Positions 23,601 to 49,526 of a stretch of DNA of 64,000 bases are shown one piece after another. The stretch lies in NCBI GenBank assembly GCA_011389985.1, contig JAABTH010000002.1, forward strand, positions 58,599-122,598, read 5' to 3'. The notes below the pieces were generated by a model. That model saw only the letters and a list, made by a program, of their open reading frames with translations. It did no database searches and had not been told where the DNA came from. The position numbers were made by a program, and so were the translations under genes. Every line of letters starts with the position of its first letter. The stretch's first letter is position 1. The DNA comes from Bacillota bacterium. Its GTDB lineage: Bacteria; Bacillota; Dethiobacteria; DTU022.

Positions 23601-25454
23601 GTGTATGAAAGACACATATTAATCTGTGCAGGAACGGGCTGTATTTCGTCAGGGGCGCTTGAAGTAAAAGAGGCCCTGATCGAGGAGCTCGATAAGCATG
23701 GACTAAAAGATAAAGTACGGATAATCATGTCCGGTTGTCACGGCTTTTGTGAAAAAGGACCAATCTTTATAGTATATCCCGAAGATGTATTTTACTGCGG
23801 GGTACAGGCTGAAGATGTTCCGGAGATTGTTGAAGAATATCTGATAAAGGGTAATATGGTCGAGCGTTTGCTGTATCACGACCCTGTATCTGGTGAAACC
23901 CATGTTTCCCACGACCAGATCATGTTTTACCATAAACAGCTGCGTCAGGCTTTACGCAACTGTGGGGTAATTGACCCTGAAAATATTGATGAATATATTA
24001 TTCGAGGCGGTTATATCGGTCTTAAAAAAGCGCTTCAGATGGAACCGATGGAAGTCGTTAACGAGGTTAAAACTTCGGGTCTGCGCGGTCGGGGCGGAGC
24101 AGGTTTTCCGACCGGTATGAAGTGGCAGTTTGCCAACAGCAGCAAAGGTGATAAAAAATATGTAGTTTGCAACGCTGACGAGGGCGACCCCGGTGCTTTT
24201 ATGGATCGCAGTTTATTAGAGGGTGATCCCCATGCTATTCTAGAAGGTATGATGATCTCCGGAAGAGCCATTGGCGCCGATGAAGGTTATATTTATGTTC
24301 GCTCGGAGTATCCCCTGGCAATCAAACGTTTACGCACCGCCATTAGGCAGGCAGAAGAATATGGTATGCTGGGTGAAAATATTTTAGGTTTTGATTTTAA
24401 CTTCAAAATCAAAATTAAAGAAGGCGCAGGAGCATTTGTTTGCGGTGAGGAGACAGCTCTTCTTGCCTCAATTGAAGGACAGCGGGGGGTTCCCCGTCAC
24501 CGACCGCCATTCCCTGCGGTTGAAGGTTTATGGAGCAAGCCGACCTGTATCAATAACGTGGAAACCCTGGCCAATGTGCCTTTAATTTTGCGTCGTGGTG
24601 CGGAGAAGTTTGCTACAATCGGCACTGAGGGTAGTAAAGGCACAAAGGTTTTTGCCCTGACCGGTAAGGTGAACAATACAGGCCTGGTAGAAGTGCCCAT
24701 GGGTGTTACAATCCGGGAGGTTGTTTTCGATATCGGTGGTGGAATCCGCTATGGCAAAAAATTTAAGGCGGCCCAGATTGGCGGTCCTTCGGGAGGTTGT
24801 ATCCCTGATGAACATCTTGACCTTCCCATTGATTTCGACTCGCTGACAGCGGCCGGGGCGATGATGGGCTCCGGGGGCCTCGTTGTTGTCGATGAAGATA
24901 CATGTATGGTTGATATGGCCCGTTACTTTCTTAACTTTACGAGAAAAGAGTCATGCGGGCAGTGTATTCCCTGCCGGCTCGGCACAACCCAGATGTATGA
25001 AATCCTGGAGGATATAACAGAAGGGCGGGGCAAGCCTGAAGATATCAAGCTGCTGGAAGAGCTGGCCTGGGCCATAAAAAAAGGCTCAATGTGTGGCCTC
25101 GGGCAAACTGCTCCAAACCCTGTATTAACCACTCTGCGTTATTTCCGCGATGAGTATGAAGCGCATGTATACGAAAAACGCTGTCCGGCGCTAGTTTGCA
25201 AGGCACTTTTACAATACCGCATAGATCCCGAGAAATGTATCGGCTGCAGAAGGTGTGCCAAAGAGTGCCCCGTTGATGCAATCAGCGGAGAGAAGAAAGA
25301 GCCGCATGTAATTGACCAGGAAAAGTGCATCAAGTGCGGTGCCTGTTTCGAGGCTTGTCCGAAAAAAGTTCAAGCTGTCGAAGTGCTCTCCGAAGGTCTG
25401 CCTGAATTAAAAGAAACTGAAGCATGCGAGGGGGACTGCAAATGTCAGAGTTAA
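23601..25454 (+). CDS. NADH dehydrogenase subunit F-like flavoprotein with C-terminal 2x[4Fe-4S] (NuoF/HndC/HylB type)
   Basis: GLRGRGGAGFPTGMKWQF, CNADEGDPGAFMDRS, ESCGQCIPCRLGT, CIGCRRCAKECPVDAI, CIKCGACFEACP. Confidence 0.95.
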   Translation: MYERHILICAGTGCISSGALEVKEALIEELDKHGLKDKVRIIMSGCHGFCEKGPIFIVYPEDVFYCGVQAEDVPEIVEEYLIKGNMVERLLYHDPVSGETHVSHDQIMFYHKQLRQALRNCGVIDPENIDEYIIRGGYIGLKKALQMEPMEVVNEVKTSGLRGRGGAGFPTGMKWQFANSSKGDKKYVVCNADEGDPGAFMDRSLLEGDPHAILEGMMISGRAIGADEGYIYVRSEYPLAIKRLRTAIRQAEEYGMLGENILGFDFNFKIKIKEGAGAFVCGEETALLASIEGQRGVPRHRPPFPAVEGLWSKPTCINNVETLANVPLILRRGAEKFATIGTEGSKGTKVFALTGKVNNTGLVEVPMGVTIREVVFDIGGGIRYGKKFKAAQIGGPSGGCIPDEHLDLPIDFDSLTAAGAMMGSGGLVVVDEDTCMVDMARYFLNFTRKESCGQCIPCRLGTTQMYEILEDITEGRGKPEDIKLLEELAWAIKKGSMCGLGQTAPNPVLTTLRYFRDEYEAHVYEKRCPALVCKALLQYRIDPEKCIGCRRCAKECPVDAISGEKKEPHVIDQEKCIKCGACFEACPKKVQAVEVLSEGLPELKETEACEGDCKCQS

Positions 25455-28114
25455 TCACTTTAACTGTTGATGGAGTTGAAATAAAGGCTGCACCGGGCAC
25501 CTCGATCCTACGGGCCGCTCTGGCCAATGGTATTTACATACCGCACCTGTGCGATCATCCCGATCTCACTTCGGTTGGAATATGCCGGGTCTGCCTGGTG
25601 GAAATCGAAGGACGTCGTCCTACGGTATCCTGTATGACACCGGTTGAGGAAGGTATGGTTGTTACCACTGCCAGTGAAGATCTTGATCAGACCCGCAAGG
25701 TAAATCTTGAGCTGCTGGTTTTAAACCACGACTACAATTGTCAGAGCTGTGACAAGAACAGCAAGTGCCAGCTGCAGGAGCTAACCCGTTATATCGGACT
25801 TGATGAAGAGCGAATCAAGGCGATGCGTAAGCCAATGCTTGACTCTCCCATTGATGATTCCAATCCATACTATATCCGAGACATGGATAAATGCGTGCTC
25901 TGCGGAATTTGTGTCCGTACCTGCGATGAAATTCAGGGGGACGGCTGCATCGATTTTGCTTACCGCGGGATTAAGACCAAGATTGCAGTACTCGGTGACA
26001 AACCGATTATTGATTCAACCTGTGTGACTTGTGGCGAATGTGTAGCACGCTGTCCTGTCGGAGCACTGGTACCCCGGAATGCCGTAGAACCGACATATGA
26101 AGTCGAAACAATATGCCCCTTCTGCGGCTGTGGTTGCGGAATGGTGGTTGGCGCGCGTGGTAATAAAATTGTAAGCTCAAGGGCTGTATCCGGCAGCCCT
26201 GCCAATAACGGCAGCCTTTGTGTTAAGGGGCGTTTTGGTTTAAGTTTTGTTAACCACCCCGATCGCCTCACCAAGCCGCTGATTCGCAAAGAAGGCGAGT
26301 TGGTTGAAGCAAGCTGGGAAGAGGCAATTTCGCTCATAGCCGACAAGTTTGGTCAGTATAAAGGCGATCAATATGCTACTATAGCTTCGGCCAAATGTAC
26401 TGTTGAAGATAACTATGTTATGCAAAAATTTACCCGTGCAGTGATGGAAACAAATAATATAGATCACTGCGCCCGTCTCTGACATGCTCCAACCGTGGCC
26501 GGTCTGGCCACAGCGCTTGGTAGTGGAGCGATGACGAATACTATCGCTGAAATAGGCGATTCGGCTTGTATCCTGGCAGCAGGTACCAGTACTACAGAAG
26601 CTCATCCAATTATAGGTTACCAGGTTAAGAAAGCAGTGCGGAATGGCGCAAAATTAATTGTTGTTAATCCTCAGGAAGTTCCGCTGACCCAGTTCGCCAC
26701 TCTGCATCTCCCCTTAAAACCGGGCACTGATGTAGTTCTATTAATGGGTATGGCAAAGGTAATAATCGATGAAGGTCTTCATGACCAGAACTATATAGAT
26801 GAACGCTGCGAGAACTTTGACAAGTTCAAAGAATCCCTGGAAGTATATACCCCGGAATTTGTAAGTGACACAACCGGTTTGCCATGGGAAGATGTGGTTG
26901 AAGCAGCAAGAATGTATGCTGAAAACGGCCCTGCTTCAATTCTTTACTGCATGGGTATTACCCAGCATTCACATGGTACTGATAATGTTCTTGCCGTAAG
27001 TAACCTGGCGCTGATCACCGGCAATCTTGGCCGTTTATCTGCAGGGGTTAACCCTCTTCGCGGTCAGAATAATGTCCAGGGTGCCTGCGATATGGGTTCA
27101 CTGCCGAATGTTTTCACCGGGTATCAAAAAGTTGAAAACGATGAAGCAAGGCAAAAGTTCGAAAAGGCATGGGGAGTATCGTTGAGTGGGAAGCCGGGCC
27201 TTACGCATACTGAAATTTTTGATGCCGCCTACAAGGGCGATATTAAGGCAATATACCTGATCGGCGAAAACCCGGTTCTAACAGAAGCAAACGCCGCTCA
27301 TTCGAACGAAGCGATGGATAAACTTGATTTCTTGGTTGTTCAGGATATCTTCCTTAACGAAACTGCCCAGAAAGCAGATGTAGTTCTGCCGGCAGTATCT
27401 TTTGCCGAAAAAAACGGCACCTCTGTTAATACAGAACGTCGTGTGCAGCGTGTTCGCCGTGTGATCGATCCCGTTGGAGAATCTAAGCCCGACTGGTGGA
27501 TTGTAAGCGCTATAGCAAATGAAATGGGTTATGAAGGGTTTGCCTATAACAGCGCTGAAGAAATCTTCAACGAGATGGCGAAGCTCACTCCAAGTTTTGC
27601 CGGTATCAATTACGAGAGGCTTGATCAGGGTAGCATTCAGTGGCCTTGCCCAAGTAAGGATCATCCCGGAACTCCAGTGCTGCATAAGGAGAAGTTTGCC
27701 ACCCCTTCGGGTAAGGCTAAGCTGGCTCCACTGGAATACAGGCCGTCTGAAGACTGTTGTGATTTTGATTTTCCGCTTATACTCACGACAGAGCGCAGTT
27801 TGTACCAGTTCCATAGCACTATGACCCGCTACTCGGAAGGGCTTGATGAACTAAGCGGCGGCGAGCAGATTCTGATTAACCCGGTCGATGCAGAAAAACT
27901 TGGCATAGCAGATGGCGATCTGGTTGAAGTTTCATCACGTCGCGGCAAGCTTAAAGTTAAGGCGACTATTACCAGGCGCAGCCAGCCCGGGGTGGCATCT
28001 TTAAGCTTCCATTTTGCTGAATGCCCTACAAATTTGCTGACCAGTTCAGCTCTTGACCCTGTGGCAAAGACTCCGGAAACAAAGGTCTGCGCTATCCGTA
28101 TCGACAAAGTATAA
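25442..28114 (+). CDS. fdhA: Selenocysteine-containing formate dehydrogenase alpha subunit with N-terminal 2Fe-2S/4Fe-4S domains (TGA at 26480-26482 read as Sec)
   Basis: Two track ORFs are one frame across TGA: ...[28 protein letters not shown]...; the RL(U/C)HAPTVAGL motif is the FDH active site; GGTCT-loop hairpin 13 nt downstream. Confidence 0.96.
26495..26511 (+). promoter_or_regulatory. Bacterial SECIS element of fdhA
   Basis: gtggcc-ggtct-ggccac: 6-bp stem with GGUCU loop, as in the E. coli fdhF SECIS. Confidence 0.88.
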
Positions 28115-39066: not shown

Positions 39067-40557
39067 ATGATTCTCTGGATAATTGCCGTATTAATTGTTT
39101 TATGGATCGTAATTATCCTGACCAGGGCGGCGCTCTTAAGGACGGAACGAAATAAAGCTTGTTCAATGCCGAACTTTGTCCCTCTAATAGATATTGATAA
39201 AAAGAGGGCGGTAGAACGTTTTGTAGAATTAATTCGATGCCGAACAGTAGCGCCGCAAAGCGATAGTGATAAAAATGAGGATAAAGATTTCGCTGAGTTT
39301 GTCAGGTTTAGAGAATTATTAAAGGAATTCTATCCTCTGGTTCATGAAAACCTTGAATATGAATTAGTAGATGACCATTCGCTTTTATATCATTGGGTTG
39401 GTCGAAACAGCGAGAAACCACTGCTTCTGATGGCCCATTATGATGTGGTTCCTGCAGATGCAGCCCAGTGGAGCAGGCCTCCCTTTGCCGGTAGGGTTGA
39501 AGAAGGGGCTGTCTGGGGGCGTGGTACGCTTGATACGAAAGTAACTCTTTGTGGTATTTTTGAAGCTGTTGAAGCTCTTCTTTCAGTTGATTTTAAGCCG
39601 GATCATGATATTTACCTGGCCTTTGGTCATGACGAAGAAATTATGGGCCATGGTGCACCGGCTATTGTTGAAGTGCTTAAGAAGAGGGGTATTCGCCCTG
39701 AAATAGTCCTTGATGAGGGCGGGGCGATAGTAGAGAATATATTTCCAGGTGTTAAAAAGCCTCTAGCTGTTGTTGGTATGGCTGAAAAAGGAGTAGCTGA
39801 TATTGAAGTTGTGCTGGAAGGCAGCGGTGGCCATTCATCAACCCCGGGTCGAGTTACTCCGCTTGCTTTGATCAGTAAAATAATACTGGAGATCGAAAAA
39901 AAACCATTTAGAGCACATCTGCCGGTAGAAGTACAAGAAATGTTTACAATATTGGGGAGGCATATGCCCTTTAAATTCAGAATAATATTTGCCAATCTGT
40001 GGTGCTTTAAACCGCTGCTTCTAAAAATGCTTCCCCTGATCAGCCGTGAACTCAATGCCTTGTGTCGTACCACTTGTGTTTTCACGATTGCAGAAGCAGG
40101 CAGCGCAAGTAATGTTATTCCGGAAAAGGTGCGTGTCTTGGCCAACCTGCGCCTGGCGGCGGTTGATCCCCTTGAAAGCGCTCTTAAGCATCTGACAGAT
40201 CATGCTGAACGGGTTTCTAAAAAAGCGTTGGCAGGCAAAGATCCCTTGAATTTAGAAGTCAGGATAGCTCATGGACATAATGCTTCGCCATCATCAAGCA
40301 CATCTTCATCGGCATTCCGCAAATTAACGGATACTGTTGAAAATGTTTTCAGCGGCACGATTGTAACCCCTTATATAATGCTTGGCGCTTCTGATTCACG
40401 GCATTACTGCTCAATCAGTGAAAATGTTCTTCGGTTTTCACCTATTCAGATGAGCAGAGAAGAGCTGCGCAGTATACACGGAATTGATGAAAGAATACCG
40501 GTTGAAAAGTTTGGCCGGGTTATTGATTTCTATCTTAACCTGATAACCCGTCCGTGA
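39067..40557 (+). CDS. M20 family metallopeptidase (PM20D1-like), N-terminally anchored
   Basis: LLLMAHYDVVPADAAQWSRPPFAGRVEEGAVWGRGTLDTK, FGHDEEIMGHGA, GASDSRHY. Confidence 0.93.
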   Translation: MILWIIAVLIVLWIVIILTRAALLRTERNKACSMPNFVPLIDIDKKRAVERFVELIRCRTVAPQSDSDKNEDKDFAEFVRFRELLKEFYPLVHENLEYELVDDHSLLYHWVGRNSEKPLLLMAHYDVVPADAAQWSRPPFAGRVEEGAVWGRGTLDTKVTLCGIFEAVEALLSVDFKPDHDIYLAFGHDEEIMGHGAPAIVEVLKKRGIRPEIVLDEGGAIVENIFPGVKKPLAVVGMAEKGVADIEVVLEGSGGHSSTPGRVTPLALISKIILEIEKKPFRAHLPVEVQEMFTILGRHMPFKFRIIFANLWCFKPLLLKMLPLISRELNALCRTTCVFTIAEAGSASNVIPEKVRVLANLRLAAVDPLESALKHLTDHAERVSKKALAGKDPLNLEVRIAHGHNASPSSSTSSSAFRKLTDTVENVFSGTIVTPYIMLGASDSRHYCSISENVLRFSPIQMSREELRSIHGIDERIPVEKFGRVIDFYLNLITRP

Positions 40558-46365: not shown

Positions 46366-47844
46366 CTAGCGTTTTTTCATTTTGTCTTCATACATTAAAA
46401 CATCAGCTTTTTTCATTAAATCTTCAATTGTTTCGTTGTCGCTCTCACTCATCGCATAACCAATAGAAACGCTTAGTTCTAAATACTTCTCCTTCAATTT
46501 TTCATTATTCGTATTAACTAAGTCAATAATCCTTTGCTGTATCGTTTTTGCTTTTTTTTCATCCCCATCAAAGAGAACGGCAGTAAATTCATCTCCACCA
46601 ATTCTGGCCACAATATCAGCTTTCCTGAAACTCTGTCTGATAACATCAGCAAAGCTATTTATCAGTTTATCTCCTGCAGCATGTCCAAAATTATCATTGA
46701 CATATTTTAGTTTATCAATATCAAACATAAAGACAATTGTTTTTTCGTTTTTCACCTCGTCAGTTAATAGTTGGTTGATGTAAGTTCTATTGTACAATCC
46801 TGTCATCGAATCGTGAAAACTGAGGTATTTCAGTTTTTTCTCTGATTTCACTATTTTTTCATACTGCTCATTATTATGAAGAACTAAGCCTAAAAACTTA
46901 GTGATGTTTAGTGCCAGGTTAAGGTATCTATCAGTATGCTGGGGAAACATAAATTCACTGGCATCTAAAATACCGTAAAGATGATCGTCCCATGAAACTT
47001 TAATGCAAAACTTATTTTCGTTATTCATCATCGCATAGTTAGCATGATTTGATTTAAACTCTCTTAGTTCTGTTGGCATTAGCTCTGAGTCTCCACTCCA
47101 AAACCTGAAATTCTGAGCACCAAAGACCATCATAAAAAGTTCTTTAACTTTACCTATTACATCTCTTTTGCTTGTGTATGATGATATTTTTCCAAGCATG
47201 TCAAAAACAGCAGAGTAATCAGCAGATTGACTTCTCAGTTCATTAATGGCCCTGGTATTCTCTGTATTTTGATGTTGGAGACGCCACTCATATATTTTGC
47301 TTTTTAACATAAGTCGAATTGTTTCAAGTTCGACTGGGACGATTAAAAAGGGAAGACCCAGATAAGAAGATAGTTCTAATAATAAACCCTCTGCATTGTC
47401 ATCAATCTTTGCATCAAGAAAAACGATTTGTTTACTTGTTTCTTGAAAAAAGCTTCTTGCTGTGTCTTTATCGAAGCCCATAGCTGCAAGATGGTCTTTC
47501 CATTGTTTTAGCCATCCTAAACTCACAATATAGCTTCCCTGGGAAGTGAGGTAATCCAAAAATTCATTACAGGTCAAATGAGTAAAACAATAATTGCCGG
47601 TAATCCTTTCGGTAATAATATCCTCATCTATGAGCTTTAAAGCATCACAGGATTTGCTGCAAATAAGAATATTCTCTCCTGTACTGGCCTGAGATAATAT
47701 TTCTTTTGCTTTACTCTTGCTTGCTTTATGATCACATAAAGTTGGGTATACATGCAGCTCTACATCAGTAATGTCCTCTTTTAAAAGGGCAGTCTGATAT
47801 TCAGGATAAAAATTTTCGCAAATAAAAAAATGTAATTTATCCAT
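46366..47844 (-). CDS. GGDEF diguanylate cyclase with N-terminal DUF1638-like domain
   Basis: DSMTGLYNRTYINQLL, ARIGGDEFTAVL; N-terminal NYCFTHLTCNEFLDYLTSQGSYIVSLGWLKQW resembles DUF1638 from memory. Confidence 0.82.
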   Translation of the reverse strand: MDKLHFFICENFYPEYQTALLKEDITDVELHVYPTLCDHKASKSKAKEILSQASTGENILICSKSCDALKLIDEDIITERITGNYCFTHLTCNEFLDYLTSQGSYIVSLGWLKQWKDHLAAMGFDKDTARSFFQETSKQIVFLDAKIDDNAEGLLLELSSYLGLPFLIVPVELETIRLMLKSKIYEWRLQHQNTENTRAINELRSQSADYSAVFDMLGKISSYTSKRDVIGKVKELFMMVFGAQNFRFWSGDSELMPTELREFKSNHANYAMMNNENKFCIKVSWDDHLYGILDASEFMFPQHTDRYLNLALNITKFLGLVLHNNEQYEKIVKSEKKLKYLSFHDSMTGLYNRTYINQLLTDEVKNEKTIVFMFDIDKLKYVNDNFGHAAGDKLINSFADVIRQSFRKADIVARIGGDEFTAVLFDGDEKKAKTIQQRIIDLVNTNNEKLKEKYLELSVSIGYAMSESDNETIEDLMKKADVLMYEDKMKKR

Positions 47845-48879
47845 CTACTCATCCACCTGAATTGGATATGTGCCGTATTCTTTGACTGTTTCAGCAATTT
47901 CCAATAAAACATTTTCCGTTACCTGCCACGGGATTTCACCATGGTTGTCAGACAGAATAAACCCTCCTCCCGGGGCAGCTTTTTTGATAAGTTCCTTTAC
48001 TTCTTTTCTGGTTTTTTCTTTATCCCAGTTTACCATATCAATAGCATCAAGATTACCAATCATTGCCACTTTTTTGTTTGCTATTCTTTTAGCTTCATCA
48101 ATATTGTCTTTTACGCTAACAGCAACTGCTTTAGTACCTGTTTTTATCAAATCCATCATTACAGGTAATGCGATACCAGAAGCTAAATTTGTAGCAACCG
48201 GGCCCCTTATTCTAGCAATAGTTTTTCTTGCCACTTCGAACCCAGTGGAAATATATGTATCTCGTTCAACTATGGTAGGAGAAGCCAAAGGATTCGCATA
48301 TGATATTGCTGTAGCACCTGCTTCGAGCTGTGCATTCGCCCAGGCTACACAGAATTCTTCATTGATTTTCATTAACTGGTTAAACTCATCTTTCCTAAAA
48401 TATATTAATTCCAAATATTTTTCAAACCCCATCTGCATAACCGGCAAAGAGAACGGCGCTGTAACTGCACCAATAATAGGTGTATCTTCGTTTACTATTT
48501 TCTTAAGTTTTTTAATAATTTCAAGACCTTTTAAAAGACCGGCGATATTGTTAATATTTGGTATTTCCATTTTGAATATGTCTTCAATCTTTTTTATAAA
48601 TGGCTCGCCAGAATTAGGTGGTCCGTCTTCGTAAAAGATAACTTCTCCACCCCAAGCCTCGATTTCAGCAGCAGAATACAAAAAAGCTGTAACCATATCG
48701 TTGCTATACTTGTTTTTCATAAGAAGCTGGCCTTTAACAACATTATCAGCGCTAGAAAAATAATCTTTAATTGACATCTCTAATTCTTTTGCTCCGGTAA
48801 TTGTTAAATTTAAGAATATTGGTACTCGGTCGGGTTCTTTATAACTAAGAGCTGTCATTACGCGTTCCATCGAATTCAT
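47845..48879 (-). CDS. Uroporphyrinogen decarboxylase-family (MtaA/MtbA-like) corrinoid methyltransferase
   Basis: MNSMERVMTALSYKEPDRVPIFLNLTITGAKEL, VAMIGNLDAIDMV; next to corrinoid protein. Confidence 0.85.
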   Translation of the reverse strand: MNSMERVMTALSYKEPDRVPIFLNLTITGAKELEMSIKDYFSSADNVVKGQLLMKNKYSNDMVTAFLYSAAEIEAWGGEVIFYEDGPPNSGEPFIKKIEDIFKMEIPNINNIAGLLKGLEIIKKLKKIVNEDTPIIGAVTAPFSLPVMQMGFEKYLELIYFRKDEFNQLMKINEEFCVAWANAQLEAGATAISYANPLASPTIVERDTYISTGFEVARKTIARIRGPVATNLASGIALPVMMDLIKTGTKAVAVSVKDNIDEAKRIANKKVAMIGNLDAIDMVNWDKEKTRKEVKELIKKAAPGGGFILSDNHGEIPWQVTENVLLEIAETVKEYGTYPIQVDE

Positions 48880-48881
48880 GA

Positions 48882-49526
48882 TTATCGTCCCTCTTCCACA
48901 AATTTTTCAATAATTTGTATTACATGCGCGCCATTCTTCCCATCGGCATCGGCATTTACCTTTTGCCACAGACTACTATCCAATCTGAATGGTGCGCCAC
49001 CTGCGACAATTTTAACGGACGAACCATTCTTCCGAAGGCTTTCAACAACAGTTTTTACTTTTAATGCCGAGGGTAGCATTAATGTTGATATTAGAAGAAT
49101 GTCTAGTTCTGCTTCAATGGTTTTTTCAACAATTTTTTCTACACTCAAACCCTGCCCAAAATCAACAAGGTCATATCCCCCTGCCTTCAATACCGAGTAA
49201 ACAATTCGCTTACCCAATGCATGGTGGTCCTGTAAAACAGCAATGGCTATTTTAGGATTCTTTTTATATGATGACTCGCATTTGGGTTTGTGATTTTCGA
49301 TCAGTTCTTCGCAAATGACTCCGCTCATATATACCTGTGATAAGGATAATTGGCCTTCCTCCCAACCAACCCCGATTCTTTCCAATGATTCCATAATCAA
49401 ATGCTCCAAGGGTTCAAAACTTTCAGCTTTCAAATAAATACTTTTAAACATCTCCGCAGCTTTGATTCGATCGATTTGAAGCAAAGCCGTTTGAAAATCT
49501 TTGATTGGTAAATTAATTGCTTCCAC
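48882..49526 (-). CDS. Corrinoid (B12-binding) protein, MtaC/MtbC-like
   Basis: B12 motif DHHALG (DxHxxG), GGYDLVDFGQGLSVEKIVEKTIE, IVAGGAPF. Confidence 0.9.
   Translation of the reverse strand: MEAINLPIKDFQTALLQIDRIKAAEMFKSIYLKAESFEPLEHLIMESLERIGVGWEEGQLSLSQVYMSGVICEELIENHKPKCESSYKKNPKIAIAVLQDHHALGKRIVYSVLKAGGYDLVDFGQGLSVEKIVEKTIEAELDILLISTLMLPSALKVKTVVESLRKNGSSVKIVAGGAPFRLDSSLWQKVNADADGKNGAHVIQIIEKFVEEGR

Follow-up and report, generated by a model that had tools for sequence, protein, structure and literature searches.

On the minus strand of the 64,000 nucleotide stretch of Bacillota DNA studied here (the window), three tightly spaced genes between positions 49526 and 46366 encode a corrinoid protein, a URO-D-family methyltransferase, and a sensor-transducer that ends in a diguanylate cyclase domain. 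Taken together, the evidence tips slightly towards the trio being a self-contained sensory cassette, in which a modular signalling protein has the corrinoid methyltransferase pair as its detector. Anaerobes might in this manner monitor a methyl-donor compound or the status of their own B12. The chances appear about even that such cassettes form an undescribed signalling class spanning phyla, where a metal-binding DUF1638 domain, together with a GAF domain, reads the methylation or redox state of a B12 protein and relays it to interchangeable GGDEF or histidine kinase outputs. The initial annotation had proposed a corrinoid methyl-transfer pair tied to a DUF1638 signalling protein that makes c-di-GMP; the association stands, being conserved over many phyla, but the output is not c-di-GMP alone.

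Gene products of the locus

As read from the open reading frames, the genes are separated by 2 nt and then by 0 nt. Their initial identification as encoding a B12-binding protein with a DxHxxG motif, a UroD-family methyltransferase, and a diguanylate cyclase was exact in its coordinates and agrees with Pfam. There is no Rfam match to a cobalamin or other riboswitch between positions 40000 and 55000 of the window, and scans for promoters and terminators gave results near the shuffled expectation.

The corrinoid protein gene (48882 to 49526, minus strand, 214 aa) has a GTG start with GGAGG upstream. Its product carries the PF02607 helical cap (B12-binding_2, 8.3e-6) and the PF02310 B12-binding domain (3.2e-16), with the DxHxxG cobalt-ligand motif present as DHHALG at residues 100–105 (49212 to 49229), which is the arrangement of MtaC/MtbC-type proteins. 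The closest solved structures are 4jgi, the MetH fragment 1bmt, and the monomethylamine corrinoid protein 3ezx. The D, H, and G of the motif are kept in 76 of 76 members, in all of which the Glu-His pair of CarH is replaced by V/I/L-Tyr, with the Trp retained. A CarH-like photoreceptor identity was rejected because this pair is missing, and the retention of DxHxxG without the pair indicates a protein of the methyl-carrier type. The best NCBIfam model is TIGR02370 (pyl_corrinoid), with 76 bits against a cut-off of 215; judged by its sequence, the window protein is outside this named subfamily.

The second gene (47845 to 48879, minus strand, 344 aa; PF01208, 7e-49) belongs to a distinct URO-D subfamily, for which the best solved relative is MtaA (4ay7). 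The zinc-ligand positions of MtaA in this structure are a His-x-Cys and a C-terminal Cys. The first of these, the His, is kept in 85 of 89 subfamily members and is Asn in the window protein, the second is Ala in all 89, and the third has no conserved Cys. The NCBIfam scores of the window protein are far below the MtaA/MtbA cut-offs. Membership of the MtaA/MtbA thiol methyltransferases was rejected on the family-wide absence of two zinc ligands, a loss that also makes a thiol (CoM-type) methyltransferase role unlikely. As some URO-D proteins are aromatic O-demethylases (PMC10418091), a role as the donor-side enzyme is plausible, although catalysis by the window protein itself is uncertain, given the Asn where 85 of 89 have His. 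There are many invariant residues and a strongly conserved DNHGEIP stretch near the C-terminus. Among the products of the trio, this one shows the strongest conservation, with 51–81% identity across phyla among the best 80 of at least 302 relatives. With the subfamily HMM, the other URO-D proteins of the host give either no match or one of 1e-8 to 1e-20, and by the same profiles none has DUF1638 or GAF neighbours. In loci of a cable bacterium and of Desulfobulbaceae (L059, L084), the subfamily is represented by a pair of URO-D genes at close distance.

The third gene (46366 to 47844, minus strand, 492 aa) encodes a protein that Pfam, hhalign, AlphaFold2, and Foldseek together resolve as DUF1638-GAF-GGDEF. 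It had been described as a DUF1638-GGDEF fusion; both of these domains are present, but a GAF domain predicted between them had been missed. At the N-terminus (residues 1–190, 47275 to 47844), PF07796 matches residues 48–177 with 2.5e-6 and 27.9 bits, against a gathering cut-off of 27. This margin is slim, and therefore a profile-profile comparison was made, in which 61 sensor N-termini aligned with 24 stand-alone DUF1638 proteins over 180 columns (hhalign probability 98.3, E 1.7e-14). The proposed resemblance of the first 190 or so residues to DUF1638 is thus borne out. A DUF1638 match at E ≤ 0.001 is found in 51 of 66 sensors.

The conserved residues of the DUF1638 domain are Cys9, Glu15, Cys37, Cys66, and Cys86. 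Across the sensors, Cys9 and Cys37 are each present in 60 of 61, a Cys in the loop at 62–69 in 61 of 61, and Cys86 in 58 of 61. The equivalent positions of the stand-alone proteins are Cys/His/Cys/Cys, each in 24 of 24, with His instead of Cys at the second; C13, H41, C71, and C93 of the stand-alone protein from the same genome align with C9, C37, C66, and C86 of the window protein. These four near-invariant cysteines point to a previously unrecognised metal or Fe-S site. In the AlphaFold2 model, each follows the end of one of the successive strands E4-9, E28-33, E58-63, and E79-83, a placement that would be consistent with a single metal site. A Foldseek search of the 95-pLDDT model against the PDB returned nothing at E ≤ 1e-3 (best 2.5e-3, query-normalised TM ≤ 0.37), and DUF1638 is for this reason given no fold assignment. 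In-frame stops in some of the stand-alone matches look like alignments overrunning the ends of short ORFs.

In Phaeobacter, B12-dependent methionine synthesis needs a stand-alone DUF1638 protein, which co-occurs with a RamA-like activase and has been suspected of a role in reactivation (PMC5764234). The requirement and the co-occurrence place DUF1638 beside corrinoid redox chemistry. In other Firmicutes, a stand-alone DUF1638 gene of about 190 aa adjoins a gene for a Crp/FNR-family regulator (L130, L133, L138, L142, L145, L150), possibly a second signalling use of the domain, and in another case the gene directly follows one for a hybrid-cluster protein (prismane; L100:3-1322).

The GAF-like domain (residues 205–330, 46855 to 47232) is the second domain of the AlphaFold2 model of the whole protein (pLDDT 93.8; about 94 for this domain), and its strongest structural matches by Foldseek are the GAF-domain proteins 6oaq, 3e98, and 4g3k. 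It is followed by the GGDEF domain (residues 343–492, 46369 to 46818; PF00990, 8.2e-39), in which the catalytic motif (46585 to 46599) and the RxxD inhibitory site just upstream of it (RKAD) are both intact. From these residues, the cyclase looks competent and this version of the protein should make c-di-GMP. Similarly, in the further GGDEF-type sensors the motif is intact in 28 of 28 and the I-site in 27 of 28. The host genome also encodes several other GGDEF proteins and one PilZ protein.

Conservation of the trio and exchange of outputs

Co-occurrence of the three genes in other genomes, which the initial annotation had made a test of its proposal, is found at every level of the comparison. 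In the order of the window genome, 10 genomes have full-length or near-full-length homologues of the third gene, at about 30% identity. Where the contig allows, the URO-D gene is directly upstream in 9 of 9 and the B12 gene follows in 8 of 8; there is no other widely shared neighbour of the trio within the order. When the DUF1638-GAF profile alone was used against 399 genomes of the phylum, there were six full-length matches besides the window, one apparently frameshifted, and this sensor-seeded search found the URO-D and B12 genes upstream in 6 of 6 further genomes.

A URO-D profile scan of one genome per species, for 84,980 species, identified at least 302 relatives (two seed patterns), of which the best 80, 51–81% identical, were read as loci. 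The corrinoid gene is present in 77 of these 80 and a sensor with DUF1638 and/or GAF in 75; as the loci were picked by URO-D similarity, these frequencies describe this subfamily and not URO-D proteins overall. A contig end cuts two of the three loci without the corrinoid gene and three of the five without the sensor. The true exceptions, where the contig continues, are L042, without a sensor, and L083, with neither sensor nor B12 gene. Chance adjacency of the trio was rejected on this conservation and the reciprocal search.

The carriers of the 80 loci are mainly anaerobes and, by the submitters' titles, belong to 14 named NCBI phyla, plus Aminicenantes and SAR324. Many are MAGs, so that an isolated placement, the lone archaeal bin for instance, may reflect faulty binning. 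Cultured carriers include Halanaerobium saccharolyticum, Acetobacterium fimetarium, Desulfonema magnum, and Geomesophilobacter sediminis.

Fusions of DUF1638 to histidine kinases and to GGDEF domains, for which a search had been suggested, are both found beside corrinoid and URO-D genes. Over all trios the output is a histidine kinase in 43 and GGDEF in 27. The proposed coupling of such a sensor to c-di-GMP would accordingly apply to the 27, but it is one of several outputs and histidine kinases are commoner. Among 66 sensors, the domains present are HATPase_c (39), HisKA (32), GGDEF (19), receiver (9), and several PAS. On the URO-D tree with duplicates removed, there have been at least nine output changes, four of them forced by well-supported branches, against a shuffled mean of 23.6, which shows outputs that are clustered yet repeatedly exchanged. 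The plainest examples, L017 and L013, are close to the window version. In L017, the DUF1638-GAF part is 71% identical to that of the window, and HK-REC replaces GGDEF. In three Geobacter-type loci (L050, L063, L072) there is a downstream receiver/HD gene of the HD-GYP kind, which is likely to encode a c-di-GMP phosphodiesterase, making c-di-GMP turnover once more a probable output.

About ten members of the cassette have GAF but no DUF1638, a domain that the proposed mechanism can therefore do without. One of these, L013, has the closest URO-D protein of all those read (81%), with a GAF domain 54% identical to that of the window and a histidine kinase output. The GAF-only sensors of Desulfobacterota and Nitrospirota (L041, L065, L070, L078, L082) end in an unnamed CxxCKxIRDDxGYW module, which occupies the place of the kinase or cyclase.

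Proposed function and alternatives

If the trio is a sensory cassette, the URO-D-type enzyme would move a methyl group from a small donor to the Co(I) of the corrinoid protein. Docking of this protein to the DUF1638-GAF part would then report its loading state (methyl-Co(III), Co(I), or oxidised Co(II)). The four-Cys metal or Fe-S site of DUF1638 could exchange electrons with the cobalt or report on its redox state, and the GAF domain would pass the change to the output, GGDEF here and a histidine kinase in other genomes. GAF, being retained in some members that lack DUF1638, is perhaps the actual receiver. The cassette includes no activase gene, and therefore regeneration of Co(I) would have to use a protein from elsewhere. 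We infer the methyl transfer, the physical contact, the metal site, the direction of the signal, and the identity of the donor, and likewise that the methylation or redox state of the corrinoid is the signal. The genes in the neighbourhood suggest no methyl donor.

It is possible, though on the unlikely side, that the trio is instead a sensor of corrinoid redox state or cobamide supply, which would report oxidation to Co(II) or the availability of B12 without any particular donor, the URO-D protein being non-catalytic or house-keeping. The four-Cys site of DUF1638, the mainly anaerobic carriers, the missing His of the window URO-D protein, and the stand-alone DUF1638 genes beside Crp/FNR-type regulators or, once, a hybrid-cluster protein would all fit this. 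However, the 51–81% identity of the URO-D protein and its invariant DNHGEIP suggest retained catalysis or ligand binding, and it is because this is the most conserved part that sensing of a donor is rated above sensing of redox or B12 status. It is very improbable that GGDEF or histidine kinases are fed here by a CarH-like light sensor that depends on cobalamin. The two B12 domains are those of CarH, and cobalamin photoreceptor domains do occur with varied signalling domains (PMC11796333), but the Glu-His pair (CarH W131, E141, H142) is V/I/L-Tyr in 76 of 76 even though the Trp is kept, the partner of the protein is a methyltransferase, and its best scores are those for corrinoid proteins of methyltransferases.

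Rather improbable, if less so than a light sensor, is a metabolic system in which the URO-D and corrinoid proteins demethylate catabolically while the DUF1638 protein reactivates the corrinoid or adjusts lifestyle. Both families are metabolic elsewhere, DUF1638 has been suspected in reactivation (PMC5764234), and the host is rich in methyltransferases. Its 1.9 Mb genome encodes, away from the trio, 19 MttB homologues, one RamA-like protein, two pterin-binding proteins, and five other B12 proteins, and methylotrophy on methylamines or betaine is probable for this organism. Four of the 19 MttB genes (which include L165-L174) have a single in-frame TAG, as expected for pyrrolysine-containing methylamine methyltransferases. 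Against a metabolic role, no conserved second methyltransferase, activase, or transporter is found beside the trio, and with the host's own proteins as queries a RamA-like activase, a pterin methyltransferase, and MttB are each near it in only 1 of 90 loci; the second methyltransferase and/or reductive activase of a catabolic corrinoid operon are thus absent from the cluster. Furthermore, the third gene always bears a signalling output and is never a stand-alone DUF1638, the type of output changes repeatedly, and the operon persists where the sensor has no DUF1638. As outputs swap and catabolic partners almost never adjoin, a dedicated sensory module is favoured over a catabolic operon. Since the activase, pterin, and MttB genes lie elsewhere and the other URO-D proteins of the host score poorly, the trio would be a specialised unit within a genome rich in methyl transfer.

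Relation to known systems

In the open-licence literature searched, no description was found of a signalling system of this kind, linking corrinoid proteins with c-di-GMP, kinases, or DUF1638, and no system is known in which a dedicated corrinoid methyltransferase is coupled to exchangeable signalling outputs. The stand-alone DUF1638 proteins PGA1_c13340 of Phaeobacter inhibens and SPO2162 of Ruegeria pomeroyi have a homologous domain with the same four ligand-like positions, and their genes adjoin those of corrinoid proteins and are needed for B12-dependent methionine synthesis (PMC5764234, PMC12478193). They differ from the cassette sensor in being single-domain and metabolic, without a signalling output. 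MtaA/MtbA and the mlp clusters share with the cassette the URO-D family fold and a partner corrinoid protein, but MtaA has three zinc ligands, two of which are absent across the cassette subfamily. The account of the mlp clusters in PMC10418091 has several Mlps with a Ram activase and makes no mention of a sensor, histidine kinase, diguanylate, or DUF.

The mec cassette for dichloromethane, compared here by its published description, likewise has a corrinoid protein (MecB) and a URO-D protein (MecC) beside two-component proteins, the MecA kinase and the MecD regulator; it differs in that MecA is a PocR-domain kinase, there are further MT I and MT II genes, and the function is catabolic (PMC9768040). 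CarH photoreceptors share the use of PF02607 and PF02310 in signalling, but the cassette protein has no Glu-His pair, is a separate polypeptide, and has an obligate methyltransferase neighbour. GAF-GGDEF cyclases and GAF histidine kinases share a GAF domain linked to GGDEF or kinase domains with intact catalytic motifs, and in the cassette this input is extended by DUF1638 and the neighbouring corrinoid and methyltransferase gene pair.

Were the sensory reading correct, anaerobes of at least 14 named phyla would turn corrinoid chemistry into signalling, in a way absent from the literature searched. DUF1638, a domain with a methionine-auxotroph phenotype and no proposed function, would gain a role as a metal-binding domain that reads corrinoid proteins, and C1 compounds or redox state would be linked to c-di-GMP, a common regulator of biofilm and motility. 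Should it fail, a variant form of corrinoid methyltransferase operon remains.

Elsewhere in the window, the formate dehydrogenase alpha gene (25424-28114) is split into two ORFs by an in-frame TGA at 26480-26482. Read through, this gives DHCARLUHAPTVAGLA, a selenocysteine site.
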